Source: a virus
IMG/VR virus record: IMGVR_UViG_3300025030_001838
Coordinates: 1 to 27,551 of that record
Length of the DNA stretch: 27,551 bases
Direction: 5' to 3' (one strand)
The notes beneath the pieces are model-generated. The model did no database searches, was not told the origin of the DNA, and saw nothing but the letters and a program-made list of their open reading frames with translations. Below are positions 3,307-21,954 of this stretch, in pieces. Position 1 is the first letter of the stretch. The number at the start of each line of letters is the position of its first letter. Made by a program: the position numbers and the translations under genes.

Positions 3307-3672
3307 ATGAAATATCTCCGCGCAATACTCTTTCTCACGCTGTGCTGCCTGCCGGCTCTCGCTGCCGGCACGAACGATGTGGTCAGCCCTGGCGCGGCTA
3401 CCCCGCCCGCTGCGGGGCAACTGAGCCTCTGGCAGATGGCGATTGTGGTTTTGGTGCCGGCCATTATCGCCGGGGTGAAGCTACTCTTGCCGCGTCTGCC
3501 GCGATGGGTGCTGCCGCTCCTGGCGCCGCTCATCGGTGTGGCGCTGGACCAACTGGGCAGGATGACGCTCGGGACCGACAGTAATGGGTGGCTGGCGATG
3601 GTGTTGGGTGGAGCGGGAACGGGGTTGCGGGAGATTGGTGACCAGCTCAAGAAAATAAAACCGGCGCCCTAA
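3307..3672 (+). CDS. Holin-like membrane protein with signal sequence (121 aa)
   Basis: The N-terminus MKYLRAILFLTLCCLPALAA is a good Sec signal, with cleavage expected after ALAA. Two or three hydrophobic helices follow: ~42-60 (WQMAIVVLVPAIIAGVKLLL), ~66-84 (WVLPLLAPLIGVALDQLG) and a weaker one near 95-105. A basic C-terminal end (QLKKIKPAP) follows. Size, helix count and charged tail fit phage holins, and the next genes look like spanins, so I place it in a lysis cassette. A cleavable signal on a holin is unusual but has parallels in phages that use signal-arrest-release or Sec-dependent lysis proteins. The ATG at 3307 is chosen because the signal peptide starts there. There is no Shine-Dalgarno. 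Confidence 0.6.
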   Translation: MKYLRAILFLTLCCLPALAAGTNDVVSPGAATPPAAGQLSLWQMAIVVLVPAIIAGVKLLLPRLPRWVLPLLAPLIGVALDQLGRMTLGTDSNGWLAMVLGGAGTGLREIGDQLKKIKPAP

Positions 3673-3681
3673 CATGAAAAT

Positions 3682-3993
3682 ATGGCCACAACAATCCTCG
3701 CCGTCCTGGCCGCATTGCTCGGGCTCCTCGGCTGGTGGCTCAAGCGACAATATAGCCCGACTGCCACCGAGCGCGCACGGGATGCGGATGCGCGGCTGGA
3801 GCGTGACCTTGTATCGCTCATTCACGAAATTGCTGAGCGGCGCAGGCGCGCCGATCATGCTGGCGCCGATGCTCTGCGTCGGCGGCTGCTCGATCATCAG
3901 ACCGGACGGCCCGGCGCCCTCGGTCCACCAGGGGCCAATGGGCAACGCGATCCTCGCGACTCTCCCGGCGGGAACAATGATTCGGCTCGATGA
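3682..3993 (+). CDS. Candidate inner-membrane spanin (Rz-like), 103 aa
   Basis: One N-terminal membrane helix (residues ~4-20, TILAVLAALLGLLGWWL) is followed by a long charged helix to about residue 72 (ERARDADARLERDLVSLIHE, then IAERRRRADHAGADALRRR), likely a coiled coil. That is the Rz (i-spanin) plan: anchored in the inner membrane, periplasmic coiled coil, acting in outer-membrane disruption at the end of lysis. The last ~30 residues are glycine/proline rich where the gene shares DNA with the out-of-frame lipoprotein at 3782-4297. It starts nine bases after the holin-like gene. No sequence-level similarity to a named Rz is claimed. An alternative is an unrelated small anchored coiled-coil protein. 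Confidence 0.55.
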   Translation: MATTILAVLAALLGLLGWWLKRQYSPTATERARDADARLERDLVSLIHEIAERRRRADHAGADALRRRLLDHQTGRPGALGPPGANGQRDPRDSPGGNNDSAR

Positions 3994-4297
3994 TCCGGCC
4001 AGGCAGGCCCAGATGCGAGCATTGTTCGTGAACGAGGTTGCACAGCAGGCAGACAGCGGCAATGGCGAGATGACACTTCGGGTCGAACTCCTGATTTGCA
4101 CTCCGGCTTACATCGCGGAGCGGGACGCAGCGGAGTTGCGACTCTGGCATCAGATCCAGCGCCTCAGCCCCAGCGGCACGAATGACATGACCATTCCGCA
4201 ATCGGAACTCCGCAGTCCACAATCATACGACTGGCGCCCGCCACCGGGTTGGCCCAAGCCCGGAGAATTGCCCGCGGCTGAATTACTGATCCACTGA
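3782..4297 (+). CDS. Candidate outer-membrane spanin (Rz1-like lipoprotein), embedded start, 171 aa
   Basis: This frame is +1 relative to the gene at 3682 and overlaps its last 212 bases. From the ATG at 3782 the protein has a basic N-region (MRMRGWSVTLYRSFTK), a hydrophobic core and the lipobox VGGC with the lipidated cysteine at residue 36, followed by a proline/glycine-rich stretch (IIRPDGPAPSVHQGPMG). This matches an outer-membrane lipoprotein whose gene starts inside the i-spanin gene, as Rz1 does in Rz. At about 135 residues after cleavage it is longer than Rz1, within the range I know for separate o-spanins. The frame is open back to 3674, but those earlier codons would place the lipobox too deep. 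Confidence 0.55.
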   Translation: MRMRGWSVTLYRSFTKLLSGAGAPIMLAPMLCVGGCSIIRPDGPAPSVHQGPMGNAILATLPAGTMIRLDDPARQAQMRALFVNEVAQQADSGNGEMTLRVELLICTPAYIAERDAAELRLWHQIQRLSPSGTNDMTIPQSELRSPQSYDWRPPPGWPKPGELPAAELLIH

Positions 4298-4299
4298 CT

Positions 4300-4446
4300 A
4301 TGCTCTGGCTCTCCTTACTCACCATCCTCACTCACCTGGTCGCGCTCGGGATCGGGGTGCTGTTTGGTGTGCGGATAACGAACAAATCGTGGCAGGAGGA
4401 GACAGCCACCAGGCCGAGCAGTGTGATTCCATTTCCAAAACAATGA
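4300..4446 (+). CDS. Very small single-pass membrane protein (48 aa)
   Basis: The protein begins MLWLSLLTILTHLVALGIGV and its hydrophobic run continues to about residue 25, then turns polar and ends SSVIPFPKQ. It starts two bases after the lipoprotein gene stops and overlaps the next start (ATGA), so it is embedded in the cassette. One membrane segment is clear. It could be a holin partner or antiholin by position, but nothing in the sequence proves this. No Shine-Dalgarno is visible. Confidence 0.55.
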   Translation: MLWLSLLTILTHLVALGIGVLFGVRITNKSWQEETATRPSSVIPFPKQ

Positions 4447-4724
4447 ATCCAGATCCTGTCATCAGTTGGAACGTCGTTTTGACGATCGGGCTGCTGCTCA
4501 ACATCACGCTGGCGGGCGTGAGTCTGATAAGATCGAAACAGAGCCAGAGGCGGGAAGTATCTTTCGCGGACACGTACGCGTCGCGCGAGGAAATGTCCGA
4601 GATCAAAACGGAGGTCAGGAATCTCCGGATGGAATTCAAGGGGGATGTCAGAGGTGTCCACTGCCGGATTGACGAGGTGCTGGCCGCCGTGTCGCGGCTG
4701 GAAGGGGAGATCAAACATATATGA
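4443..4724 (+). CDS. Small membrane-anchored coiled-coil protein (93 aa)
   Basis: Residues ~7-28 (ISWNVVLTIGLLLNITLAGV) form one membrane helix. Residues ~45-93 are a heptad-patterned charged helix (EEMSEIKTEVRNLRMEF, then VLAAVSRLEGEIKH) expected to be a coiled coil. The start overlaps the previous stop (ATGA). Small anchored coiled-coil proteins of this kind occur beside holins in many phages (the hemolysin XhlA type has the reverse order), so a lysis-accessory role is plausible. It is the last membrane protein before the packaging genes. Confidence 0.6.
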   Translation: MNPDPVISWNVVLTIGLLLNITLAGVSLIRSKQSQRREVSFADTYASREEMSEIKTEVRNLRMEFKGDVRGVHCRIDEVLAAVSRLEGEIKHI

Positions 4725-4736
4725 ACACTGAAATGC

Positions 4737-4785
4737 ATTCCGCATTCCGCATTGCGCATTCCGCATTCCGCATTGCGCATTCCGC
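4737..4785 (+). repeat. Heptanucleotide repeat ATTCCGC/ATTGCGC, seven copies
   Basis: Seven heptamers run in the order ATTCCGC, ATTCCGC, ATTGCGC, then the same three again, then ATTCCGC. This gives a 21-base higher-order period. A degenerate eighth unit ends on the A of the ATG at 4792. The reverse complement of the same family lies at 14735-14764. The array fills the whole gap between the membrane protein and the winged-helix gene. I recall this repeat (read as NAECGMR in protein) from many verrucomicrobial genomes. Confidence 0.85.
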
Positions 4786-4791
4786 ATTGGC

Positions 4792-5037
4792 ATGAACCTC
4801 GACCCCGCCAAACGCCTGGCACTCCGCGCGCTCTCGCGCATGGGGGATCAGCCAATGCCCGCGGATGCGCTCCGCGATTCCATCCGGATCATACATCCGC
4901 AACTCACCGCTGGGGATGCGGATCGAGCCGTGCGCGACCTGGAGGCGGATGGCTACATCGCCGGCACCCATGTGGACCTGGTGGGCATCCTCTGGAGTCT
5001 CACGCCCAAGGGCGCGAGCAAAGCCAATCAATTATGA
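4792..5037 (+). CDS. Winged-helix protein before the terminase genes (81 aa)
   Basis: The sequence from residue 5 to 78 (KRLALRALSRMGDQPMPADA, then DRAVRDLEADGYIAGTHVDL, ending WSLTPKGASKANQL) has the helix-helix-helix-wing pattern of small winged-helix domains, including a typical RDLEADGYI recognition helix and a TPKG wing. It lies directly before the small terminase. In Mu-like phages this slot holds small proteins of the gp25-gp26 region, so a role in packaging or late control is possible. The ATG is chosen because the homology-like pattern starts at once. It abuts the heptamer array and has no Shine-Dalgarno. Confidence 0.65.
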   Translation: MNLDPAKRLALRALSRMGDQPMPADALRDSIRIIHPQLTAGDADRAVRDLEADGYIAGTHVDLVGILWSLTPKGASKANQL

Positions 5038-5621: not shown

Positions 5622-7510
5622 GCAGCCCGCGAAATACACGAAAGAATCTGTCCAATGCGCAACCCCAGAAGAAAAGGGGCCGCAGCAACGCGGCAGTGCA
5701 AGCAAGGCCAAGTGCTGGCTCGGTAGCCAATGCCTCGACCGGTCTGTCCGGTGAATCCGCCTCTGACGAGCGCGAACTGCAGAGTAAGCCGGAGTGTGTG
5801 GCTGCTCCTGAATCCGCGCCCCAGGCTGGCAGGCAGACTACGGAGTTCGCGAAAAGCACTCCACTGGCTGGACGTGAGACATCGCGGTCCGGCGGTGAAT
5901 CCAGCAGCAACCTTGCTTCTGCCGCGCCGAGTGCGGCCCCACCTTTTGGCATCCGGGCCGGCCAGCGCGAGCTCGAGCGCGGCATCGACGAGCACCGCAT
6001 TGTGGGGTTCCTCACCCGCCGACAGTACGGCAAGACCACCGAGGCCGCGCGCATCGCGCTCAAGAAAATGATGCGCATCGCCGGGCATGACGTCGTATTC
6101 GGCTCGGTCAAACTGGACCTCGGCCGCGAGATGGTGCGAAAGGAAGCGGCCCAGATGCAGCGGGCCTTCGCTCTTCTGGCCGCCCAGGCCGCGGCGGCGC
6201 AGACCCTGCTCGATGTCGTGGACCCGCTCAAGCATCGGTCCGTGGCGGGCATCCATGTGGATGACTGGAGCGAGCTCTACGAGCAATCCCGGCTCGAGTT
6301 CCGGCTCTACCACAGCCGCACGATCTACAGCCGCACCAAGGTGGTCGCTCTCACCCCGGATGCGGTCGGTGAGACGGGCGACCTGATCCTGGACGAGGTT
6401 GGGCGCGTCAAGCATTTCCGGGCGGTGTGGGAAGCCGTCAAACCTATCATATCGAGCAATCCTCAATTCCGTTGCCTGCTCACCACCACGCCGCCGCCGG
6501 ATGACTCGCATTATTCGTTCGAGCTGCTCGCGCCGCCGGTGGGCGAGGAGTGCCCGGTCCGGCCCGAGGGCAACTGGTACCGCAGCGAGCTCGGGGTCTG
6601 GGTCCTGCGCGTCACGGCCTGGGATGCGTATGCGGACGGCATCCCGCTCTACGACGATGACACCGGCGAGCCGCTGGATCCGGATGCCAGCCGCGCTCGG
6701 GATCACGACAAAGAAGCGTGGGACCGCAATTACGGTGTGAAATTCATTTTCGGCGGTACATCGGCCTGCAGCTTCATCGCGCTCGACACGGCCCAGAAGC
6801 GGGGGGTTGGGCAGTGTGGATATTTCAATATCCAGAGCGACTCGGATTTTGGTCCCGCACTCGTGTGGCTCGGACACCATCTCGGTAATGGACCCATCGG
6901 CCTGGGCTGGGATCTGGCCACCACCACCAAAGCCACCAGCAACCCGAGCGCGTTGTGTGTCATGGAACGGCAAGGGGCGGAGTACATTCACCGCGCGATT
7001 GTCACGTGGAAAACTGCTGACCCGGACATCGCCATCGAGCGCGCGATGCGTATCGCGCGGGTGGTCCGCAGCCGTCCCGCAGGCCCGGCGCGGCGGCTCT
7101 GCATCGACGCCACGAACGAGCGCTACTTCGCGCAGAGTGCGCGCAAGGAGCTGGGCAGCGAGGTCCCGGTCGAGCTGGTGGTGGGTAGTGAGACGACGCA
7201 ACGGCCGGGCATGGAGGAGCCGCTGACGATGAAGCAATATTTAGGAGGCCTGCTCGTGGGTGAGCTGGACGATAATCATCTCCTGCTGCCGCCGGAGCGC
7301 TACGTGCGCGAGGATTGGCGTCTGGTGCGCAAGGAGCGCGGCCAATTCGTGTGCGAGCCGGACGTGGATGGCAAGCATGGGGACACGTTTGATGCGGCCA
7401 AGCTCGCACTCCATGCGCTCACGGGCAGCGGCCCGTTTTTCTGCCAGCAGGTCAAACCACGGAAACAAGACCATCGGCGAATCGAGCGGACGAAGGGGGT
7501 GCTGGTATGA
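5618..7510 (+). CDS. Large terminase subunit, Mu gp28-like ATPase/nuclease (630 aa)
   Basis: This is the packaging motor. Walker A is at residues ~131-141 (LTRRQYGKTT), Walker B at ~255-260 (DLILDE), and a coupling motif LLTTTP at ~287-292. The RNase H-like nuclease half has the expected acidic residues: GLGWDLATTT (D432), LCIDATNERY (D497) and the HGDTFDAAKLAL motif (D589/D592). The first ~110 residues are low-complexity (S/A/P/R/E-rich) and should be disordered. Codons 3-9 come from a dispersed repeat at 5626-5644. The start overlaps the small terminase stop, and there is no other ATG until residue 151, beyond the Walker A motif. GGGGGA stands about nine bases upstream. Confidence 0.95.
   Translation: MSSPRNTRKNLSNAQPQKKRGRSNAAVQARPSAGSVANASTGLSGESASDERELQSKPECVAAPESAPQAGRQTTEFAKSTPLAGRETSRSGGESSSNLASAAPSAAPPFGIRAGQRELERGIDEHRIVGFLTRRQYGKTTEAARIALKKMMRIAGHDVVFGSVKLDLGREMVRKEAAQMQRAFALLAAQAAAAQTLLDVVDPLKHRSVAGIHVDDWSELYEQSRLEFRLYHSRTIYSRTKVVALTPDAVGETGDLILDEVGRVKHFRAVWEAVKPIISSNPQFRCLLTTTPPPDDSHYSFELLAPPVGEECPVRPEGNWYRSELGVWVLRVTAWDAYADGIPLYDDDTGEPLDPDASRARDHDKEAWDRNYGVKFIFGGTSACSFIALDTAQKRGVGQCGYFNIQSDSDFGPALVWLGHHLGNGPIGLGWDLATTTKATSNPSALCVMERQGAEYIHRAIVTWKTADPDIAIERAMRIARVVRSRPAGPARRLCIDATNERYFAQSARKELGSEVPVELVVGSETTQRPGMEEPLTMKQYLGGLLVGELDDNHLLLPPERYVREDWRLVRKERGQFVCEPDVDGKHGDTFDAAKLALHALTGSGPFFCQQVKPRKQDHRRIERTKGVLV
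5626..5644 (-). repeat. Dispersed GTGTTTCGCGGG-family repeat inside the terminase start
   Basis: CCCGCGAAATACACGAAAG is the reverse-strand form of the repeat seen at 9391-9401, 11660-11679, 13908-13936 and 19188-19217. Here it is translated as residues 3-9 (SPRNTRK) of the large terminase, five bases after the A of the ATG. Confidence 0.65.
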
Positions 7511-7769
7511 ACGGTCGCAAATGGCAGATGGCAGATGGCAAATGGCAAATGGCAAATGGCAAATGGCCTCGGTTGGCAACCCTTTTTCCGCCGTTGGTTC
7601 GTGAAATTTCGTTTGTAAGGCTGCGTATAGGCGTTTGGGCACATTCCTACCGGGTGGGTGCAAAAACCTCCTATTGTACCAATGCAGGCTATTGCAGCCA
7701 TCGTAGTGCGGGACCTGACTCCCCGATCAGCCAAAGTATGAGTCCGGGCTCAGCAACCCTTTTCCGCGC
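7511..7769. other. 259-base gap between terminase and portal, no gene
   Basis: No credible frame is present. The gap opens with the AAATGGC heptamer array (7519-7567), immediately followed by GGCAACCCTTTTTCCGCC near 7575-7591. A similar GCAACCCTTTTCCGCGCG closes the gap at 7753-7770 and supplies the GTG start of the portal. An in-frame stop at 7716-7718 bars a longer portal. The segment between looks like degraded sequence of no clear origin. Confidence 0.5.
7519..7567 (+). repeat. Heptanucleotide repeat AAATGGC/AGATGGC, seven copies
   Basis: Seven uninterrupted heptamers run AAATGGC, AGATGGC, AGATGGC, then four AAATGGC. Because seven is not a multiple of three, the array offers an ATG in all three frames and contains no stop codon in any of them. 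It begins eight bases after the terminase stop codon. It is a different sequence from the ATTCCGC array at 4737 but has the same unit length and copy number. Confidence 0.9.
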
Positions 7770-9350
7770 GTGAACACCACTTCCCAAGTCACTCCAGAGC
7801 TTGTCCGGCGCTCGATCCAGGGCCGGTTCAATCCGCTCCGTGGGCTGACACCGGAGACATTGAGCCAGCAACTGGATTGGTTCCGCGCCGGCTACCTGCG
7901 CCAACTGGCCCTGACCATGGAAGCGATCGAGGAGCGGGATGACATCATTGCGGGAGTGGCGCCCAAAAGGCGAAAAGCGGTGGCTCGCCACGGCTTCGAG
8001 ATACTCACACTACCGAATCTTTCGGACGCGGACAAGACCCGAGCGGACCGGCACGCCGCCGCGCTCCAGTATTTCTACGATCATTGCGAGTGTACTAATG
8101 CACTCGATCTGGACGAGCGCGGATCCTTCAAGCTGCTCGTCCGACAAATGATGGATGCGCCCGGCAAGCGTTGGGCCGCCCATGAGATCCTCTGGCAGCC
8201 ATCGCCCGGCGGGCTGACCGCTGAGTTCCGGTTTGTGCCGCTCTGGTTCTTCGAGCGCATCACGGGCCAGCTGCGGTTCCTCGACATCAATAAGAGTGTC
8301 GAGGGACAGCCACTCGAGGCTGGCGCCTGGATGATCACTCGAGGAGACGGTATCATGATCGCTTGTGCCGTGGCATGGATGTTCAAGAGCATCGGCCTCA
8401 AGGACTGGCTCATTTATAGCGAAAAACATGGGATGCCCGCGCTCCAGGGCAAGACGGATGCCGCCAAGGATAGCCCCGAGTGGACCGCGATGGTGGATGC
8501 GGTCGTGGCTATCGCATCAGATTTTTCGTGTGTGACGTCCAAAGGGGATCTGATCGAGAAGATCGATCTCTCGACTGAGGGGCAACTACCTTATCCGCCT
8601 CTAGTGGAGCGTATGGATCGCGCGCTAGCCATCCTCTGGCGCGGTGGTGACCTAAGCACGTTGTCGAAGGGCGGCGAGGCCGTGGGGTCACAATCGCAGC
8701 AGGGCGAGAGCGAGATGCTCGAAGAGGATGATGCCGGGATGATCGGCGAGACTCTCAATACTTGGATAGATCCATGGGTCATCCGGTACACGGTGGGAGA
8801 TGATCGGCCGTTGGCGTATGTCAAGATCCGGACACAAAACCGGCAAGACACGAAGCTCGAGATCGAGGTGGATAAATTCCTGCTCCAGTCCGGAGCGCCA
8901 CTCTCGGTCGAGAGTACGCTCGAACGCTACAACCGGCCACAGCCTGAGCCGGACGCGCTGTTACTCACGCCGCCTGCCGCCGGTTTCCCTGGCCAAACGC
9001 CCTACCCGGCCCTCGAAAATGAGGCGGTCAATCAACAGCTCCTCAATAATGTCCTCGAAGGCCTCACCGGCGTGAAGGCCCAGTGGCTCGGTGGTGTGAA
9101 ACCGTTCTTTCGCCGCCTTCTTGATGCCGCGCGCGCTCACACACTCTCGGATGCCGATTTCGTGCAGACACTCGACCACGCACAAAGGGAGATACCAGAA
9201 CTATTCTCCAAGCTCGACAAGCAAGCCCTGGCTAACGCGCTCGAGGCGGCCATGGGCGCGGGCGCACTTAACGGCGCGCTCCGAGGCTATATGACGCGGC
9301 CCACGAATGTGGAAAACCAAAAGCGGAAAGCAGAGGCAATCGATGTTTGA
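7770..9350 (+). CDS. Portal protein, DUF935 / Mu gp29 family (526 aa)
   Basis: The protein has the DUF935 layout. The N-terminus has SIQGRFNPLRGLTPETLSQQ and the helix LALTMEAIEERDDIIAGVAP, then KRRKAVARHGFEI. The central domain includes MMDAPGKRWAAHEILWQP, GAWMITRGDG and KSIGLKDWLIYSEKHGMPA (conserved GxP-type region). The C-terminal half has YPPLVERMDRALAILWRGGD and a helical tail. It forms the dodecameric ring through which DNA enters and to which the tail attaches. The start is a GTG at 7770, since an upstream in-frame stop at 7716 leaves no ATG before residue ~50 and the family N-terminus begins right after the GTG. Unlike Mu, no MuF-type minor head gene follows. Confidence 0.93.
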   Translation: MNTTSQVTPELVRRSIQGRFNPLRGLTPETLSQQLDWFRAGYLRQLALTMEAIEERDDIIAGVAPKRRKAVARHGFEILTLPNLSDADKTRADRHAAALQYFYDHCECTNALDLDERGSFKLLVRQMMDAPGKRWAAHEILWQPSPGGLTAEFRFVPLWFFERITGQLRFLDINKSVEGQPLEAGAWMITRGDGIMIACAVAWMFKSIGLKDWLIYSEKHGMPALQGKTDAAKDSPEWTAMVDAVVAIASDFSCVTSKGDLIEKIDLSTEGQLPYPPLVERMDRALAILWRGGDLSTLSKGGEAVGSQSQQGESEMLEEDDAGMIGETLNTWIDPWVIRYTVGDDRPLAYVKIRTQNRQDTKLEIEVDKFLLQSGAPLSVESTLERYNRPQPEPDALLLTPPAAGFPGQTPYPALENEAVNQQLLNNVLEGLTGVKAQWLGGVKPFFRRLLDAARAHTLSDADFVQTLDHAQREIPELFSKLDKQALANALEAAMGAGALNGALRGYMTRPTNVENQKRKAEAIDV

Positions 9351-9370
9351 CACTCAGCCTCAATCTTTCG

Positions 9371-9401
9371 CGCCTGCCTGCGCAGGCAGGTGTTTCGCGG
9401 G
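9371..9401 (+). repeat. Left copy of a 31-base inverted repeat flanking the gpG gene
   Basis: The 31 bases are exactly the reverse complement of 10018-10048. The core CCTGCCTGCGCAGGCAGG (9373-9390) is a perfect 18-base palindrome, followed by the arm TGTTTCGCGGG shared with the other dispersed repeats. It occupies most of the gap between portal and gpG and ends nine bases before the ATG at 9411. The layout is that of REP-type elements. Confidence 0.9.
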
Positions 9402-9410
9402 TCAACAGGT

Positions 9411-10016
9411 ATGATCACCGTCTCTGTCATAGACCAAGCCAGCCCGGAGCTGCGCGCACTCAGTGCGCGAGTCAGCAATCCCATCCCTGGGCTCAAGGTC
9501 GCGGGCCGCGCGGTGGCTAACCTCCTGCGCGCACACTACCGCCGCAAAGATCAGACCGAGCCCAATAAACTCGGCGGACGCCGCACCCACTATTGGAGAG
9601 CGGTTGCGCACAGCGTGCACAACCCGGTCCAGAGCGGCGCCCAGCAAGTGACCGTGAGCATCAACGATCCTACCATTGGCCACAAAATCATGGGGGGACG
9701 CATCACAGCCAAACGCGCCAAAATGCTCACTATACCCGTGCGGGCCGAGGCGCATGGCAGATATGCCGCAGTCCTGGAGCGCGCCCTGGGGATCAATCTG
9801 TTCCTGGTCAAAAAAGGCAGCAAAGCGTTCCTCGCCGGACGGACACAGAACAAGGGCAAGACAGGCGCGCTCAGAATATTTTACGTGCTTAAGCGCTGGG
9901 TCGATCAGCGGGCGGATCCCACGGCGCTCGTGCCCGAACCGCAGATGCGGGCCACGGCCACCGCTTATTTCGGGCGCTGGGTCATGCGCAACACGCGCAG
10001 CACTGGGACAACATAG
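9411..10016 (+). CDS. Phage virion morphogenesis protein, Mu gpG-like (201 aa)
   Basis: The protein starts MITVSVIDQASPELRALSAR and contains VAGRAVANLLRAHYR, a basic RKDQTEPNKLGGRRTHYWR segment and ITAKRAKMLTIPV, with LERALGINLFLV, the arrangement I associate with the Phage_tail_S / virion morphogenesis family (Mu gpG). The role expected is head completion or head-tail joining. It follows the portal as in Mu but without the MuF gene. I prefer the ATG at 9411. A GTG at 9390 in the same frame would add MFRGSTG, encoded by the dispersed repeat. The gene is bracketed by an exact 31-base inverted repeat, so the whole reading frame sits inside a repeat-bounded unit. Confidence 0.85.
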   Translation: MITVSVIDQASPELRALSARVSNPIPGLKVAGRAVANLLRAHYRRKDQTEPNKLGGRRTHYWRAVAHSVHNPVQSGAQQVTVSINDPTIGHKIMGGRITAKRAKMLTIPVRAEAHGRYAAVLERALGINLFLVKKGSKAFLAGRTQNKGKTGALRIFYVLKRWVDQRADPTALVPEPQMRATATAYFGRWVMRNTRSTGTT

Positions 10017-11617: not shown

Positions 11618-12385
11618 ATGTTCACATTCCTCATAATCCTCCTCACCGTTTTAGCGCTCTTTAGCGTGTTTCGCGGGCCAAATCGGATCGCGCTCGCGAA
11701 CATTTCCGAGGGCACGCACCAAGGCACCACCACCAAAAAGGCGGATGGTGTCATCAACCGCAACATCCTCCTCAAGCTCGGCTCCGACGCCAAGCATGTG
11801 ACCATCTGCACCGCCGCCGATATCCCCATTGGCATCTCCGAGGATGAGGCCGACGAAGCTGAGGACCTGCTCCACGTCCATTTCCTTGGGGCGAGCGATC
11901 GCACCAAGGTCATGACCGCATCCGAAGCCATCACAGCGGGCGAGGATGTTTACACGGCCGCCGCCGGCAAGGCCCAGGATCTGCCAGTGGCCGCCGGCAC
12001 CTACTACCATGTGGGGCGGGCGCTCACCGCCGCCACCGGCGACGGCGTCGAGATCGAAGTCGAGACGTGTGTGCCCGAGAAGCTCGTGGTCATTGCCGCG
12101 CTCACCAGTGCCGACACCGACCTGGGTTCACTCACACTCACTGCCCCGGATGCGCTGACTGTCGGAGCTGATATCGGAGTCTTCACCGATCCGCCGAGCG
12201 CGGCGGAAATGGCACTGTTGCGCACCTTCGTGAATGCGTTGAAGGCCGACGTGACCGCCCTCCGCGCCACCGTCAACACGCATAAGACCGAGGGCGAGGC
12301 CATAGCGGACGCCGCCGAGGTGCTGGCGGATGATGTGCGCGAGATCGCCGTGGCTGCCACCGGCGGCAACGTCAAAATCCTGTAA
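11618..12385 (+). CDS. Head decoration protein-like, with repeat-derived N-terminus (255 aa)
   Basis: From residue ~28 the protein reads like a capsid decoration or stabilisation protein (DUF2190-like): IALANISEGTHQGTTTKKAD, ITAGEDVYTAAAGKAQDL and YHVGRALTAATGDGVEIEV, with the repeated gly/ala-rich beta pattern and the phrase DIPIGISEDEADEAED. It precedes the major capsid gene, as expected. The ATG at 11618 has AAGGA seven bases upstream, but it adds a hydrophobic leader (MFTFLIILLTVLALFSVFRG) that no decoration protein needs. The end of this leader is encoded by the dispersed repeat at 11660-11679. A GTG at 11666 inside that repeat would start the protein without the hydrophobic part. The C-terminal ~75 residues are a helical extension. 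Confidence 0.75.
   Translation: MFTFLIILLTVLALFSVFRGPNRIALANISEGTHQGTTTKKADGVINRNILLKLGSDAKHVTICTAADIPIGISEDEADEAEDLLHVHFLGASDRTKVMTASEAITAGEDVYTAAAGKAQDLPVAAGTYYHVGRALTAATGDGVEIEVETCVPEKLVVIAALTSADTDLGSLTLTAPDALTVGADIGVFTDPPSAAEMALLRTFVNALKADVTALRATVNTHKTEGEAIADAAEVLADDVREIAVAATGGNVKIL
11660..11679 (+). repeat. Dispersed repeat TTTAGCGTGTTTCGCGGGC at the decoration gene start
   Basis: TTTAGCGTGTTTCGCGGGC matches the copies at 13908-13936 and 19188-19217. It lies inside the annotated N-terminus of the decoration gene and encodes FSVFRG. Its internal GTG is an alternative start. Confidence 0.75.
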
Positions 12386-12409: not shown

Positions 12410-13423
12410 ATGAAGCCAACTCAATTCGCACTTTTGAACGAACAAGCCATTCTCGCCGCCGAGGGGATTCTCCCGATGCTGCCGGCCCATCTCGATCACG
12501 GTCAAGTCGCCCTGGCTAACGACACGATGTTAGCCGAAGCTTACTGGAGCGAGGAACTCACCGGGTACTCTGTCGGCTGGAAAGACCAGCGCAACATCGA
12601 AGAGACGCTCGATTTTTGTGCGCCTCCCGTGCCGGTGAACCGGCTCTTCCGCTATACGGAGTTCACGCACGCGGAAGCGTTTCTCGAGGAGCCGAACGAT
12701 GAAGATATCCGCGCCATGAACGCGGATTTCAAAACGGTCAAACCTTACACGGAGACCAAGACGAATGCCGAGACCGAGAACAAAGGGCTCACCATTATCC
12801 TGGATCTCGACCGCGTGCTGCAGAAGCCGAACTGGCGGCAGCGCTACACCGGCAAGCTCACCGAACGCTTGCTCCGCACGGAGCTGCGCCGCGCCGTGGC
12901 GCTCATCTCGGCGGCGGCCACAAACACCGCTGTGACGTGGGACACCACGGCCGGCAAGGACCCGGATCAGGACATCAAGACCGGTCTGCTCGCGGGCGAG
13001 ACAGCCTCGGGCATTTACCCCAACCGCGTCTGCTACGGCGCCACGGCGTGGAACAAGCGTGGCCTGAGCCATCGGGCACAGAACCTCGCCGGTGGCTATG
13101 CCAGCGCCGGGCAAACGCCGGCGCAAGTCGCTGCCTTCCTCGGCGTGGACGCTGTCCACGTGAGTTCCCAACGATACCGGACATCAGCATCAGCCCTGGC
13201 CGAGCTTGTAAACAACCTGGTCTTCGGTTGCTACTGCACGACAGGTGTGGACGAAGATGATCCCGCGAACTGCAAGCGGTTCTTCACCCCGACCGAAGGC
13301 GGGACGAAATACCGTGTCTACGAGCAGCAGCTCAGCGCCAAGCTCTACGCGATCACCGTCGAGCATTACAGCCTGGTGAAGATCACCAGCACACTCGGCC
13401 TGCGCAAGTGGACCGTCTCGTAA
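12410..13423 (+). CDS. Major capsid protein (337 aa)
   Basis: Order (after protease and decoration protein, before the gp36-like adaptor) and content fit a HK97-fold major capsid protein of the Mu gpT/lambda gpE class. Visible landmarks are FCAPPVPVNRLFRYTEFTHA, a central helix KLTERLLRTELRRAVALISA, the typical coat-protein block NRVCYGATAWNKRGL, the segment TPAQVAAFLGVDAVHVSSQR, and a C-terminal strand YAITVEHYSLVKITSTLG. It is short for the fold, lacking a long N-terminal delta domain, which agrees with a separate scaffold in the protease gene. There is no Shine-Dalgarno at the ATG although this should be the most abundant late protein. Confidence 0.85.
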   Translation: MKPTQFALLNEQAILAAEGILPMLPAHLDHGQVALANDTMLAEAYWSEELTGYSVGWKDQRNIEETLDFCAPPVPVNRLFRYTEFTHAEAFLEEPNDEDIRAMNADFKTVKPYTETKTNAETENKGLTIILDLDRVLQKPNWRQRYTGKLTERLLRTELRRAVALISAAATNTAVTWDTTAGKDPDQDIKTGLLAGETASGIYPNRVCYGATAWNKRGLSHRAQNLAGGYASAGQTPAQVAAFLGVDAVHVSSQRYRTSASALAELVNNLVFGCYCTTGVDEDDPANCKRFFTPTEGGTKYRVYEQQLSAKLYAITVEHYSLVKITSTLGLRKWTVS

Positions 13424-13946: not shown

Positions 13947-14210
13947 ATGGCAACCGTGACTGGTACAATTAAGACACCCGAGGATGCGCCCTACACCGGC
14001 CATGTGCGTTTCCGGGCGCTTAGCACACCGCTCGCGGATGCGCCGGACCTGATCGTGGGCAGCGATGTGGTGGTCCAGTGCGATGCGCTCGGACAGTTCA
14101 GCACCACACTCCGGAACGGGCGGTACCAGGTCACCGCGGGCCGGGAGACGGAGACAATCCTGGTGCCGGACGATGCGCTCTCGCATGACATCCTTACGCT
14201 AATCGAGTGA
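13947..14210 (+). CDS. Small beta-rich fibre-region protein, tandem copy 1 (87 aa)
   Basis: The protein TGTIKTPEDAPYTGHVRFRA... is an all-beta domain with regularly spaced strands (TLRNGRYQVTAGRETETILV), the look of a small fibronectin-like or carboxypeptidase-regulatory-like fold. By hand count, about 56 of its 87 residues are identical to the N-terminal 87 residues of the next gene, so the two arose by tandem duplication. It lies just after the head-tail connector. I infer a structural or receptor-contact role linked to fibres. Such proteins are, as I remember, common in verrucomicrobial prophages. Confidence 0.75.
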   Translation: MATVTGTIKTPEDAPYTGHVRFRALSTPLADAPDLIVGSDVVVQCDALGQFSTTLRNGRYQVTAGRETETILVPDDALSHDILTLIE

Positions 14211-14217
14211 CCATGAC

Positions 14218-14730
14218 ATGTCAGTTATCACAGGCACAATCAAGACGCCGGACAATCACCCCTACACCGGGGAGTTGCGGTTCCGGGCGCTCTCGACTCC
14301 CGTGGCTGATGCGCCGGATCTCATCGTGGCTGAAGACGAGGTTGTCTCATGCACGGCAGCCGGGACATTCACAGTCACTTTGCGCACCGGTCAGTACCGC
14401 GTGTGGGTGGGGCGCGAGTCACTCACCATTGCCGTCCCGGATGATAACGCGAGCTATGATATTCTGGAGCTCATCGACGGGGATATCAGCTTTACCGCAT
14501 CCCCGTCCACCAGCGGTTTTTACCGCGCCGATACACTCACCGCGCTCCGGACCGTCGCCAGCGCGGCTGGGAACAAGATCGCTTGGTTGCTCGGAGAAAC
14601 TGCTGCTTGGGATATTGCCCCACCGCGCGTCTACGCCTGGGATGCCGCCAGCATGGATGCCGACGACGGATTGCTCTACGTGCGGCCATCGGACTTCACC
14701 ACCGCAGGACTCTGGAGACAAATATTATGA
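14218..14730 (+). CDS. Fibre-region protein, tandem copy 2 with extra domain (170 aa)
   Basis: Residues 1-87 are the paralogue of the preceding gene (TGTIKTPDNHPYTGELRFRA). Residues ~100-170 are an added segment (FYRADTLTALRTVASAAGNK, then DDGLLYVRPSDFTTAGLWRQ) with the DGLLYVRPSD pattern of phage fibre or tailspike head-binding pieces. It starts seven bases after its paralogue stops and overlaps the next gene (ATGA). The extra domain may attach the beta domain to the fibres encoded downstream. The function is inferred from context. Confidence 0.75.
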   Translation: MSVITGTIKTPDNHPYTGELRFRALSTPVADAPDLIVAEDEVVSCTAAGTFTVTLRTGQYRVWVGRESLTIAVPDDNASYDILELIDGDISFTASPSTSGFYRADTLTALRTVASAAGNKIAWLLGETAAWDIAPPRVYAWDAASMDADDGLLYVRPSDFTTAGLWRQIL

Positions 14731-15374
14731 GAACGCGGAATGGGGAATGGGGAATGCGGAATGCAAAGCGTCTCTCTCTGCGCTGGGTTGTTTTTGCCGC
14801 CGTCGTTTTTCCGCTCTCGCTTGTCGCGGATTTCACGCTAGAAAAATCAACCGCCGCGGATCTGGCATCGACCGCTCCCGGTCTGCACCGGACCTGCATC
14901 TTGAAGGGCTGGTCCACATTGGGCGATGGGCTGGGCGGCGTGCTGTATTACGATCCCGCATCGGATGCGGGGACCAACAGCTATTCAGTCCTCAAGCCCA
15001 ACTCATACTCGGGGCGCTGGCTGCGGCTGACCGTTCCATCGATGCCCTTGGTGCTGTCTGTCACAGCCACCAACACCACTCTCACAGCCGGGCAATCAGG
15101 GGCCTGGGTGCACAACCAGGGCGCCACCAACCTTGTGCAGGTCACGCTCCCGAGCGCCGCAGCCGGGCTGCGGTTCCTCTGCATCAATCTGACGTCGGAG
15201 GGGATGCGGATCGTTCCGGCGGACACCAATACGACCTTGCGGATCAGTGGCACACTCAGCAGTGCCGGTGGATCGATCACCAGCATGCACATGGGAGACG
15301 ACGCAATGTGCCAGGCGATCAATACCACCAATTGGATCATCACACCGAATCTTAGTTTATGGACGATCGAGTGA
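14727..15374 (+). CDS. Signal-peptide-bearing fibre-region protein (215 aa; start may be 14754)
   Basis: The first ATG overlaps the previous stop, with GGAG nine bases upstream, but codons 4-13 are the reverse-complement heptamer repeat (14735-14764). An in-frame ATG at 14754, supplied by that repeat, gives a textbook signal peptide: MRNAKRLSLR, then WVVFAAVVFPLSLVA and cleavage before DF. The mature part has one domain ~30-95 (HRTCILKGWSTLGDGLGGVL, a tailspike-like phrase), then a beta domain with TLTAGQSGAWVHNQGATNLV and LRISGTLSSAGGS. Similar sequences occur in phage tailspike N-termini. An exported protein in a tail cassette is odd; see findings. Confidence 0.72.
   Translation: MRTRNGEWGMRNAKRLSLRWVVFAAVVFPLSLVADFTLEKSTAADLASTAPGLHRTCILKGWSTLGDGLGGVLYYDPASDAGTNSYSVLKPNSYSGRWLRLTVPSMPLVLSVTATNTTLTAGQSGAWVHNQGATNLVQVTLPSAAAGLRFLCINLTSEGMRIVPADTNTTLRISGTLSSAGGSITSMHMGDDAMCQAINTTNWIITPNLSLWTIE
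14735..14764 (-). repeat. Reverse copy of the ATTCCGC heptamer repeat, inside a gene start
   Basis: GCGGAATGGGGAATGGGGAA and the bases after it to 14764 are four to five degenerate copies of GCGGAAT, the reverse complement of the array at 4737-4785. It provides the ATG at 14754 and the residues NGEWGMRNA of the predicted protein. Confidence 0.8.
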
Positions 15375-17815
15375 CGAGGTATTCCCAAATTGCAATCGCC
15401 TGTTGTCTGCTGCCGCTGGCAGCCATGGCCGCCGACATCCGGCCAATCGGCGGCGGTCACATTCAATCGCTGCTCCAGAGCCAGACCAAGCTGGTGGCGC
15501 GTCAAGCCGTCGGAGTTGAAGCCGGCACCTCAACTCAAGTCCTACACGGAAATGCCGGCGGTGACCCAACATGGAGCAGCTTGAGTTTGTCATCCGATAT
15601 CACCGGAACGCTGGGAGCTGCCAACGGCGGAATAGGAACAAACAGCAGCGCTTGGACTGGTTTCCCGCAGATCTCAGCCGGTGTCTGGGCTCAATACGAC
15701 CTGTTTGCCAGCGCGAATATCTGGGGTGGACTGAATACCTGGAATGCTCTTTCCACGATGGCCGGGATTATCCCAGTCAATAGCACGGACGATTTGGGAG
15801 CGATTAATTATCCTTTCGACACTGTGTTTGCTGACAGCCTAGATTCGACTGGTGCTGCTGCTGGCGGTGGTGTCATCTCGACGAAGGTATCCGGAGCAGA
15901 AGCTTACCATTTTTTTCTTTTGTATAACAACGGGGAAATGGCATGGGGTCCAGGCACTGGGACGCAAGATACCACTTTGTCACGCACTGGAGTCAGCACG
16001 CTCTCGCTTGGAAGTGGTGATAGCTTGACCGTTCCGGGGACGATGACAATCGGCACATTAGCCGGCTATCTCAAGGGCACGGCTGGTGTTGTATCCGCCG
16101 TGACTGCAATTCCTGTTAGCGATATATCCGGGAACCCGGTTACAGGCACTGGAACGCAAAATAAATTGGCTAAATTTCTTAGCAGCTCAAGTGTTGGAGA
16201 TTCCTCGATCACGGAAACGAATGGTAACGTCGGCATCGGGACGACGGGACCGGGGGCAGAATTGCACGTAAATAATTCTAGTGGACAAGTTGACTTGTGG
16301 GTTCAGGGCACGAGTAGTGCGATGGTTAATTTGATTTCCGCAGGTGCTGGAAATTCTTATATCAATTTTGGAACTGCTGGAGAAGATTCTAACCTCTACT
16401 TTAGGGGAGACAATGGTGCAAGTGATTTGGTTACTATTTTAGATAGCGGCAACGTCGGCATTAATGATACGACTCCTGATGCGCTGCTGGATATAGCAGG
16501 CACATTGATGGTGGATTCTACTACTCAATTGGGAGGCACCCTTACCGTCAACGCGGAAACCGATCACAATGGCACTGTTACTATGGGATCAGGTTATCAA
16601 ATCGCAGCAACCACTGGCACAGTTGGTTCTCCAGGCGTTGCTTTCAATGGGGATCTAAATACTGGGATGTGGGCGCCATCTGCTGATGTAATCGCATTTA
16701 GCACCTCCGGCGCAGAGCGAATGCGGATTTCGCAGGGTGTCGGAATCGGGACAAATGAACCCATCGGGATGCTCGACATCCGAAGTGAGGATGACTCGAC
16801 CGTTGTCACTGTGGGAATTCGAGCTGTGCAGTCAGAAATTACTGCTTTAGATACTTTCGTCGATTTCCGATCAAATACAGGTTCCGAAGGCTCGATTGCC
16901 GGGACCGCCAGCGCCGGCGTGATCTCATATAATACTTTCACAGCGTCTCATTATTCTCAGATTGTTGATATTGATACTATTCCGGCAGCCGCGCGGATTG
17001 GTGCGTTGATCGAGATTGTTCCCGGAAATCCGTCCTGGCCGAAACGTCTTCGGACGCCAGCTACAACCAACGTCGTTGAAGCCTATGAGAGCTACAAGAC
17101 CAATCGGATTCTCGTAACCAATATGATTTCTAGTGTGGTTACCAATTTCACACCGGTCACCAATTCTTTCCCTGTGGTTGACGGCGCTGGGAATCCGGTT
17201 CTGGAGACGATCCATACCTATCAGTCAGATGAGCAAATTAGCACGAATAGCGTTGTCGTTTATATACGGGATGGAGACCAGTTCCGGCAGCAGACCAATA
17301 CTGTTTACGCGACGAATATCGTCAAAACCGTCTCCGGAACGTCTTTCGAACAAATGATCCATTCCGAGATTGTTCAGCAACCCGATGTCGTGACCAATTG
17401 GATGCAAAACACGGAATGGGAAACCTCCGTTAGCACCAACTATTTCCCAACCACCACAAATGTCGTTGCAGCCACGTATTTCGAGTCATCCGGTAAATCG
17501 CACCTATGGAAATCTCGCTTGGCCCGCGCAATCCCTGCCAACAAGCTCGCCATCGGAGTTTACCTCGGGACCGATAAAGAAGGCCGGGACATGGTCGCGA
17601 GCATCGGGACGTGCGTGATGTGGGTTTCCGATGATGGTGGGGACATCGAGGCTGGCGATTTTCTGATGAGCTCAAGCTCACTCGGGTGCGCCCAACGCCA
17701 AGCAGATGATTTCCAACACAATTACACTGTCGGAAAAGCAACGGAAAACTTGATTTGGGCCGATGAGGGCGGGAAGAAGCGCAAGCGGATCAAGTGCTTG
17801 CTGGTGGGAGATTGA
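15371..17815 (+). CDS. Long tail fibre with GIGTT repeats and a signal peptide (814 aa)
   Basis: The fibre signature is clear: NGNVGIGTTGPGAELHV (~284-300), SGNVGINDTTPDALLDI (~359-375), GVGIGTNEPIGMLDI (~456-470), and VAFNGDLNTGMWAPSADVIA followed by FSTSGAERMRI (~423-453), all known from trimeric phage fibres. The C-terminal ~300 residues have GSIAGTASAGVISYNTFTAS and GGDIEAGDFLMSSSSLGCAQ, like the trimerisation/chaperone ends of such fibres. The N-terminus MTRYSQIAIACCLLPLAAMA, with cleavage expected before ADI, is a clean Sec signal. Residues 24-90 are paralogous to the next gene. I prefer the GTG at 15371 (GTGA overlap); an ATG at 15359 adds four residues. Base composition is clearly more AT-rich than the flanking genes. 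Confidence 0.87.
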   Translation: MTRYSQIAIACCLLPLAAMAADIRPIGGGHIQSLLQSQTKLVARQAVGVEAGTSTQVLHGNAGGDPTWSSLSLSSDITGTLGAANGGIGTNSSAWTGFPQISAGVWAQYDLFASANIWGGLNTWNALSTMAGIIPVNSTDDLGAINYPFDTVFADSLDSTGAAAGGGVISTKVSGAEAYHFFLLYNNGEMAWGPGTGTQDTTLSRTGVSTLSLGSGDSLTVPGTMTIGTLAGYLKGTAGVVSAVTAIPVSDISGNPVTGTGTQNKLAKFLSSSSVGDSSITETNGNVGIGTTGPGAELHVNNSSGQVDLWVQGTSSAMVNLISAGAGNSYINFGTAGEDSNLYFRGDNGASDLVTILDSGNVGINDTTPDALLDIAGTLMVDSTTQLGGTLTVNAETDHNGTVTMGSGYQIAATTGTVGSPGVAFNGDLNTGMWAPSADVIAFSTSGAERMRISQGVGIGTNEPIGMLDIRSEDDSTVVTVGIRAVQSEITALDTFVDFRSNTGSEGSIAGTASAGVISYNTFTASHYSQIVDIDTIPAAARIGALIEIVPGNPSWPKRLRTPATTNVVEAYESYKTNRILVTNMISSVVTNFTPVTNSFPVVDGAGNPVLETIHTYQSDEQISTNSVVVYIRDGDQFRQQTNTVYATNIVKTVSGTSFEQMIHSEIVQQPDVVTNWMQNTEWETSVSTNYFPTTTNVVAATYFESSGKSHLWKSRLARAIPANKLAIGVYLGTDKEGRDMVASIGTCVMWVSDDGGDIEAGDFLMSSSSLGCAQRQADDFQHNYTVGKATENLIWADEGGKKRKRIKCLLVGD

Positions 17816-17838
17816 TCGCAAAATTTAACATTAAACCT

Positions 17839-19164
17839 ATGAAGATGAACAATTCAGATCGAAAACCTCGAATTCTCCTCAGTATCGCACTTGGCCTGCT
17901 CCTCGGGAGCGGCCTCATCGCCACTATCGCCACAAGCCGACCTCTCGGCGGATCGCACATTCGCACATTCCTCGAGTCCGAGGATGCCGCCGCAGCCAGA
18001 GCCGCTATCGGGGCTGGCTCGGGAAGCGGAGGCAATTTCACCAACATCAACATCGTAGGCGGCACCCAAACGCTGTTGACCAACTCCGATCTGACTGCCA
18101 GCCGTGTGGCAGTTTCGGCGGCTGATAAGACATTAGCATCACTCGCCGCGGGCACATCGGCCCAAGTGCTGCATGGCAATGCCAGCGGCCTGCCCACCTG
18201 GTCAGCTCTGAGCCTGACCGCAGACGTCACCGGAACGCTCCCGGTCGAAAATGGAGGCACGGAAGCGACCACGCTGACAGGGATGCTCAAGGGCAACGGG
18301 ACGAGCGCATTCACCGGAATTACCGGGACCCAATATGGTATAGGTTATTGGTCCGATGCGAATACGATCGGAACGAGCGCCGCCGCGGGAAACACCAACA
18401 AATTCCTCCGCGGCGCTCCCTCTGGAGCTCCCACCTGGGAGCCAGTCAACCTAGGCAATGCCGATGTGAGCGGGACGTTGCTAGCCACATCGCTGCCGAC
18501 ATCCGGAGTAACGCCGGCAACTTATGGTGGAGACGCACAGACGACCGTGACGGTCACGGTGGATACGTATGGACGCGTCACGAGCGCTACCGAGAGTGCG
18601 ATAGACGGCCTGGATGCCTCGGCGATTGATACCGGCACCTTAGGTGTCGCCCGTGGTGGCTCTGGTGCGGGGACATTTACTGCTGGTTATCTTAAAGCCA
18701 GCGGCACGAGTGCGTTTACTACTGTTGCCAGTGTTCCGAATACAGACGTGACTGGTCTTGGAACTATGTCAACACAGGCTGCTTCAGCCGTTGCTATTAC
18801 CGGTGGAACAATTGCCGGAACCGCAATCACTGTCCGGATTTATAACAATGATGGATCGGCAACCAATACACTTGTCTCGGCAGATAGCGCCACGCTCTGT
18901 GTTAATGACGCTGCGACTGCGCTGGCAGTTTATAACTTACCTAATGCGACTGCAGGACAGGTGTTTTCTTTTCGGGTAACAGATGATGATGGCATCCAAA
19001 TCAATGCTTTTACTGGTGAGACAATTTCTGTTGGTAACGCAACAACCTCTGCCGCAGGTTATTTGAATTCCACAAGCATTGGAGACCGTGTTACATTGGT
19101 TGCTACGACCTCGACTAAATGGGTGGACGTGGCTAGTTACGGTCAATGGACCGTCAGCCCATAA
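17839..19164 (+). CDS. Second tail fibre, paralogous N-terminus, signal/anchor segment (441 aa)
   Basis: The protein starts MKMNNSDRKPRILLSIALGL, basic then hydrophobic to about residue 31: a signal peptide or anchor. RPLGGSHIRTFLES (~34-47) and AGTSAQVLHGNASGLPTWSA (~103-122) followed by DVTGTLPVENGGT match the previous fibre. Typical fibre repeats follow: GGTEATTLTGMLKGNGTSAF (~139) and ARGGSGAGTFTAGYLKASGT (~281). The C-terminal ~110 residues (YNNDGSATNTLVSADSATLC to the end) are a small beta domain with no chaperone part. It starts 23 bases after the first fibre. The frame is open further upstream (GTG at 17794), but the signal begins at 17839. Confidence 0.83.
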   Translation: MKMNNSDRKPRILLSIALGLLLGSGLIATIATSRPLGGSHIRTFLESEDAAAARAAIGAGSGSGGNFTNINIVGGTQTLLTNSDLTASRVAVSAADKTLASLAAGTSAQVLHGNASGLPTWSALSLTADVTGTLPVENGGTEATTLTGMLKGNGTSAFTGITGTQYGIGYWSDANTIGTSAAAGNTNKFLRGAPSGAPTWEPVNLGNADVSGTLLATSLPTSGVTPATYGGDAQTTVTVTVDTYGRVTSATESAIDGLDASAIDTGTLGVARGGSGAGTFTAGYLKASGTSAFTTVASVPNTDVTGLGTMSTQAASAVAITGGTIAGTAITVRIYNNDGSATNTLVSADSATLCVNDAATALAVYNLPNATAGQVFSFRVTDDDGIQINAFTGETISVGNATTSAAGYLNSTSIGDRVTLVATTSTKWVDVASYGQWTVSP

Positions 19165-20805: not shown

Positions 20806-21954
20806 ATGGGGGCACCATTCACCATCGATCTGCGGGCCAGTGGGGCCACACAGACGGCTAGCGCGGTCAATCAACTGCGGGGAGCACTCAACCAGACCGC
20901 ATCGAGCACCAGCCGGCTGGGAAGCATCTTCAGTAGATATCTAGGGCCAACAGCTGTCGGATTTGCGCTGCTGGCCAAGACGCGGTCACTGATCGCTTTC
21001 GCCTCTCGCATCCAGGACACATCAGAACGTGTAAACGTGGGCACAGAGGCGCTTCAGGAGTTCGATTATGCCGCCAGCCTGACAGGCGCGTCACTCGATG
21101 ATGTGGGTAATGCACTCAAGCATCTCCAGGTCTCGATGTTAGGTGCGCTCGGCGGCAACAAACCGGATCTCAAAAGCTTCGCGAGATTGGGCATCTCACT
21201 TGACGAATTACGGCAGAAATCGCCGGAGCGCATTTTCCGCGAAATTGCCGATCGTGTCAGCAAGACAAATCCCAGCGTGCAGCAATTGGCTGACATTGTT
21301 AATCTACTCGGTCGGAGCGCGGATCGATTAGTCCCGGCATTTCGCGGAGGTTTCGGGCGCGCAGCAGCGGATGCACAGCGTCTCGGGATCGTCATCGAGG
21401 ATAGCGTGATCAAGAAGGTCGATGCGCTCGGTGACCACTTCGGCCAGCTCGGGCGGCAGTTGCAAAGCGGGTTAGCCGGCCCGCTGACATGGCTCATGGA
21501 CAGGTTCACTGACCTGAGGGCTGGCGTGGCCTTCGTTAGTTCGTTCGTCGGAGCCGAAACGGCCAAACAAGGCGCGCTCCGACGCTATGCAGGCGGGTTG
21601 CTCTCGCCATTTGGGCCAGGTATTGGTACAGCTATGGCCGCAGCTCGAGCTCAACTTGAAAAATTCTCCGCGCTCGAAATCGCCAATAAGGCGATGGAAG
21701 ATGTCTTTGCGGAGCAGCTATTGGTCGGCAGCCGGCGAGGGGTGGTTGGTGGCGATACAGACCGAGCTGTGAGCCCAGCAGCGCGGAAGCTCTCTAGCCA
21801 GAGTGCTACATCCGCCACCACCGCAGACGCGCTCACACGCATTGGCCTTTTCCGCGGCGGCGATACCGCCACCAAGCTCAACAAACAAATTGCGCTCTTG
21901 GAGCGCGTAGATCGCTCCATCCAGAGCCTGCGCAGGGACTTGACTGAGGTATGA
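20806..21954 (+). CDS. Tape measure protein, short (382 aa)
   Basis: Residues 1-45 (TIDLRASGATQTASAVNQLR, then SSTSRLGSIFSRYLGP) and the helical middle (SLIAFASRIQDTSERVNVGT, EALQEFDYAASLTGASLDDV, SPERIFREIADRVSK, and LLGRSADRLVPAF) are typical of phage tail tape measure proteins, including the LGRSADRLVP motif I associate with them. It continues with hydrophobic segments near residues 235-285. At roughly 1.5 angstroms per residue, the length predicts a tail near 57 nm, short for a siphovirus. It starts two bases after the previous gene and overlaps the next (ATGA). Confidence 0.78.
   Translation: MGAPFTIDLRASGATQTASAVNQLRGALNQTASSTSRLGSIFSRYLGPTAVGFALLAKTRSLIAFASRIQDTSERVNVGTEALQEFDYAASLTGASLDDVGNALKHLQVSMLGALGGNKPDLKSFARLGISLDELRQKSPERIFREIADRVSKTNPSVQQLADIVNLLGRSADRLVPAFRGGFGRAAADAQRLGIVIEDSVIKKVDALGDHFGQLGRQLQSGLAGPLTWLMDRFTDLRAGVAFVSSFVGAETAKQGALRRYAGGLLSPFGPGIGTAMAAARAQLEKFSALEIANKAMEDVFAEQLLVGSRRGVVGGDTDRAVSPAARKLSSQSATSATTADALTRIGLFRGGDTATKLNKQIALLERVDRSIQSLRRDLTEV

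Follow-up and report, generated by a model that had tools for sequence, protein, structure and literature searches.

Tailed phages are assumed to make their fibres, and to fit them to the particle, inside the cytoplasm, and to our knowledge there is no precedent for periplasmic fibre assembly among these phages. T5 Llp is a phage-coded exported protein that masks a receptor. Mu-like phages (Mu, B3, RC1 and others) share a Mu-type portal and a comparable late gene order with the virus described here, but unlike it, the eight examined have no convincing fibre signal. In Bordetella phage BPP-1, the Mtd protein is associated with a DGR that has a variable region with a nearby template, bAvd, and RT. 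A survey of phage DGR proteins reports them without signal peptides, while bacterial DGR proteins with signals can be displayed at the surface (PMC6199706). Searches of the open-access literature yielded no paper describing tail fibres with signal peptides. Bradyrhizobium phage ppBdUSDA122-1 (OP596612) resembles the present virus in having an annotated tail fibre with a signal, although its phage type and host phylum differ. The fibre begins MKLQRLLGAIGAVVMSVSTALA/AEQSS and has a signal score of 8.47. Siphophage particles of this phage are visible by TEM, and the passages of the paper considered here do not mention the fibre signal (PMC10127595).

The window, an entire IMG/VR record of 27,551 bases, contains three consecutive fibre-type genes with predicted Sec signals (Table 1). 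Its portal places the virus among the Mu-portal phages, and the remaining capsid and tail genes were assigned by gene order. The same virus is present in two further IMG/VR records, the longer of which (L096, 38,344 bases) adds leftward sequence with ORFs at 7469-9745 and 6381-7442 that on reading resemble MuA/MuB. Among viral contigs, these two records are the only close relatives of the window capsid and 170-aa proteins, and the window fibres match records of the same virus and otherwise only at the level of repeats. Both of the longest records end at about the same position on the right, so an additional signal-less fibre may exist. No DGR was seen in the window. A lysis-gene-like ORF pair (3307-3672 and 3674-4297) lies 5' of the terminase region; one of the encoded proteins is small and signal-bearing, and the other is lipoprotein-like. 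Short tandem units of the type GGAATG(C/G)G occur within or beside genes at 4332-4841 and about 14728-14760.

Table 1. Positions of the features of the window that are discussed in the text.
Feature	Position	Strand	Signal (site)	Score	Remarks
Mu-type portal protein	7770..9350	+			PF06074, 6.7e-58
Decoration-like protein	11618..12385	+			hydrophobic N-terminus; directly 5' of capsid gene
Major capsid protein candidate	12410..13423	+			from position; homologues sit 3' of Mu-type portals
87-aa protein	13947..14210	+	none		weak tail-fibre PHROG match (phrog_14726, 0.0031)
170-aa protein	14218..14730	+	none		first part 64% identical to 87-aa protein
206-aa fibre-type protein	14754..15374	+	14754-14828 (SLVA/DFT)	8.9
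Tail-fibre protein, 814 aa (818 from ATG 15359)	15371..17815	+	15371-15430 (AMA/ADI)	8.41	GIGTT-type repeats; score from GTG 15371
Motif RPIGGGHIQSLL	15440..15475	+			directly after signal of 818-aa fibre
441-aa fibre-type protein	17839..19164	+	17839-17931 (TIA/TSR)	9.04
Same motif, RPLGGSHIRTFL	17938..17973	+			in 441-aa fibre
Tape measure protein	20806..21954	+			phrog_9483, 4.3e-18

The scoring confirms the N-termini of the three window proteins as predicted Sec/SPase I-like signal peptides, beyond chance. The score is rule-based and considers a basic n-region, an uncharged hydrophobic core, and the -3/-1 rule. All three proteins have a basic n-region, a hydrophobic core, and small residues at -3 and -1, and their scores bear out the claim of a sequence-only reading that Sec-type signals are present on three fibre-type proteins in a row. 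Few whole-protein shuffles reach a score of 8 (4/2000, 0/2000, and 3/2000 for the 206-, 818-, and 441-aa genes, respectively). Of the six classic E. coli signals used as positive controls, OmpA, MalE, LamB, RbsB, and DsbA were recognized with scores of 8.1-9.0, and PhoA was missed. In a six-frame scan of the window (ORFs of at least 60 aa), 3 of 183 ORFs score at least 8, and two of these are window fibres; the scan leaves out the gene at 14754, whose start is too deep within its longest ORF. The same criteria called 2 of 139 ORFs in the eight Mu-like phages of other hosts, one of them an internal start in a gene for a central tail fibre J and the other a weak capsid-adjacent case, and a stricter setting called none of 106 ORFs. 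The start codons affect two of the predictions. The AMA/ADI site, which had been proposed in the same reading, holds from the GTG start but not from the ATG at 15359, where the n-region (MDDRVTR) is neutral and no signal is called. The 206-aa gene, read here from the ATG at 14754, has an alternative in-frame ATG at 14727 that overlaps the preceding stop. The 441-aa gene begins with the ATG at 17839. A PEP-CTERM motif and a second hydrophobic anchor are absent from all three proteins.

One of the three proteins is a tail fibre by homology, and a second resembles it. For the 818-aa protein the evidence is a match to tail-fibre PHROGs (3.6e-08). Pfam and PHROG searches gave no family match for the 206-aa and 441-aa proteins. 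The 441-aa protein resembles the 818-aa protein in two short matches (60% and 34% identity), and the two long fibres have RP(I/L)GG(G/S)HI in common directly behind the signal. The signal-less 87-aa and 170-aa proteins may be adaptors.

Fibre signals are a minority trait among the sampled Mu-portal prophages of one bacterial class. The survey was centred on L098, an Opitutaceae MAG that is the single GTDB match of the window portal. PF06074 is present in 87 of the 384 genomes of its class, and the sample comprised 60 regions downstream of portals, several of which stop early or are without tail genes. The window fibres have no homologues among these 60 regions, so fibres were picked by position, composition, and domains. 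Signal-bearing fibre-type late genes were found in 12 genomes (L131, L136, L139, L142, L162, L163, L166, L174 with two genes, L176, L178, L180, and L189), and their sequences are mostly unrelated to one another. Many other Mu-portal regions of the class have signal-less fibres. The sequence-only reading had proposed a look at related phages, and this was worthwhile, although the signal is not general among these prophages. The signals are also not confined to prophages of the class, since they occur in the Bradyrhizobium phage and in the IMG/VR contig L078, which represents a different phage lineage. The latter came from a loose scan of 42 fibre relatives from IMG/VR whose start is complete. 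The scan called 11 signals, and on reading, only that of L078 is real.

The signals of the surveyed fibres vary in score and sequence. L131 and L180 score 6.6-6.8, the first fibre of L174 scores 5.3, L176 scores 7.1, and the others score 7.8-10.2; L166 was included by reading, as the scorer misses its first fibre. L163 and L166 are 73% identical at the mature start versus 30% in the signals. Signal-bearing ORFs of L155, L169, L171, and L188 were excluded because their neighbourhoods look like host genes. An internal restart yielding an unexported form was rejected as a general feature, since on reading a Met is at the site in the window 818-aa gene and L178 but not in most others. No PEP-CTERM was found in the 16 fibres checked, and 15 of them have no other strongly hydrophobic stretch, the exception being a weak one in the first fibre of L174 (1.69), so that an exported fibre would be soluble. 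Neither the relatives' fibres nor the window proteins have YadA or autotransporter Pfam matches. An anchor of the membrane, YadA, or PEP-CTERM type, as expected of a host surface fibre, was found in none of them, with the first fibre of L174 as a weak exception.

Among the signal-bearing fibres, that of L131 is, as judged from homology, the clearest receptor-binding protein. It matches the second domain of Mtd (3.4e-17) and the tail protein family phrog_11262 (2.9e-100), and its identity to BPP-1 Mtd is 40.7% over 248 columns and 49% over 87. Located in an Opitutaceae MAG prophage, the gene has the neighbouring DGR, with bAvd and RT, of an Mtd-type target. All 13 of the 13 changes between the variable region (12043-12147) and the template (12574-12678) are at template adenines. 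BPP-1 Mtd has no signal by the same score, and the L131 protein, with its predicted signal, is an exception to the signal-less phage DGR proteins reported previously (PMC6199706). The DGR alone is no proof of a virion role, because bacterial DGR proteins with signals can be surface-displayed (PMC6199706). In L174, an Mtd_N match slightly under the Pfam cut-off (residues 37-73, 3.3e-05) begins immediately behind the predicted cleavage site; a search of 289 genomes of the phylum gave a single Mtd_N match, which is without a signal. L189 has a tailspike-like K1-lyase C-terminal domain (2e-27), and L142, L162, and L180 match tail-fibre PHROGs. These PHROGs also match L178, for which a head-decoration family is the best match. 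PHROGs give no support for a fibre in L136, L139, L163, and L166, which are called fibres on position, repeats, and composition.

In the modules scanned, the predicted signals sit on outer add-on parts and not on core parts. In four prophages (L139, L142, L178, and L180) the small gene immediately 3' of the fibre has its own signal. That of L139 belongs to phrog_6034 (2.3e-15), and the phiM5 homologue, which is without a signal, comes after a fibre detected in virions. Among 206 ORFs of 13 modules selected for having a signal-bearing fibre, 19 score at least 7. Besides the fibres and their downstream partners, these include three accessory genes adjacent to the capsid gene; the only other case is an internal start, itself implausible, within a large gene at the tape-measure position. 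Genes for the portal, capsid, tube, or hub do not reach this score. Capsid-adjacent accessory proteins with signal-like N-termini are found in L139 (3899-4948), L176 (4676-5233), and L180 (3214-4029; all in late-strand coordinates).

These results suggest that some phages may export their fibres from the cytoplasm rather than attach them to the particle within the cell. The sequence-only reading had stated that Sec signals conflict with cytoplasmic fibre assembly, and we accept this. It had offered display on lysogens, a membrane step, or attachment at lysis as explanations. The balance of the evidence is towards the last of these, with attachment at or after lysis, because there is no surface anchor, the genes are late and belong to a structural operon, domains of the tropism-determinant and tailspike types are present, and the signals are restricted to outer parts and extend to the downstream gene. 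The three proteins would serve a transposable Mu-portal phage as fibre or receptor-binding components and would have genuine Sec signal peptides at their N-termini. While the late genes are expressed, the fibres would be translocated and cut by signal peptidase I. The mature fibres, presumably trimers, would fold in the periplasm, with head and tail assembly proceeding meanwhile in the cytoplasm. Lysis would open the envelope and bring fibres and particles together, and the mature N-terminus would dock onto a tail adaptor, perhaps the 87-aa and 170-aa proteins. We infer this series of steps, from export and cleavage to folding in the periplasm and docking at lysis, from the sequences, and we consider the chances about even that the fibres are exported, cleaved, matured in the periplasm, and joined to virions at lysis. 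Signal sequences of the expected pattern, the fibre homologies, recurrence on unrelated fibres, signal-typical divergence, the lack of another anchor, and late-operon position support it, as do the signal on the downstream gene and the limitation to outer parts. The many regions of the class with signal-less fibres stand against it, as do the lack of a known precedent among tailed phages, the rule-based nature of the predictor, and the chance that a further, signal-less fibre lies to the right of the recorded sequence. The broader proposal, that some tailed phages complete outer virion parts (fibres, their partners, and some decoration-like proteins) outside the cytoplasm by export, periplasmic maturation, and addition at lysis, is put forward tentatively, at somewhat less than even chances.

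The main rival to export followed by attachment is that the fibres are free receptor-masking proteins. They would be exported, stay soluble in the periplasm or be released, and never enter the particle, masking receptors of the producer and its debris or blocking superinfection, while another tip protein adsorbs. The signals without a second anchor, the large tail-tip proteins present in addition to the fibres, and the example of T5 Llp agree with this. It nevertheless appears unlikely, given the Mtd, Mtd_N, and tailspike-type domains on relatives' fibres and the signal on the downstream gene. Several modules also have a signal-bearing fibre as the sole fibre-type gene seen; on reading, no further fibre gene follows the tail-tip gene in L139, L142, and L178. 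If lysogens or late-infected cells displayed them at their surface, the proteins would be similar to host surface fibre proteins. Class chromosomes indeed carry many proteins with S74 tail-fibre domains and signals, in neighbourhoods that look host-like, and surface display is known for bacterial DGR proteins (PMC6199706). The lack of PEP-CTERM, of YadA or autotransporter matches, and, in 15 of 16 fibres, of another strongly hydrophobic stretch makes display improbable, as does the situation of the fibre genes in late structural modules.

The hydrophobic segment might instead be retained and serve as a tether that keeps the fibres at the inner membrane during a membrane-bound step of assembly. 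The decoration-like proteins of the window and several relatives also have a hydrophobic start and might tether heads likewise. However, most fibres have A-x-A-type sites, the mature start is kept across diverged signals, and Mtd_N begins directly behind the site in L174, which renders a tether quite improbable. The least probable explanation considered is that the signals are passengers with little phage function, captured by recombination from host surface-fibre genes. Signal-bearing S74 proteins are common in class chromosomes, but the signals are found on many unrelated fibres and are maintained as signals despite sequence divergence. In addition, the phage fibres are without the 'YQG' start typical of the host proteins. 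If some fibres are exported, an extra-cytoplasmic step would be added to their maturation and attachment and to tropism switching by DGRs. A signal peptide would also be less useful as a mark of a bacterial rather than a phage DGR or fibre protein (PMC6199706).

Several minor observations concern host-like genes and head proteins. The chromosomal S74 proteins, which are fibre-type with signals like the phage fibres, are a possible source of phage fibre genes. Examples are found in L254-L266, where some are followed by a second signal-bearing gene. In L155, L161, L164, L165, L168, and L177, host-like genes come after the genes for a Mu-type portal, a decoration-like protein, and the capsid, and there are no obvious tail genes, as in domesticated or decayed clusters. 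In the window decoration-like protein, the hydrophobic start is followed by RIALAN/ISEG, and homologues with a hydrophobic start are present in L131, L160, L162, L173, L178, and L182. The RIALAN/ISEG stretch resembles VALAN/D of the capsid protein and GIALAN/E of the protease protein, and the N-terminal hydrophobic stretch is possibly a membrane segment cut off by the prohead protease.
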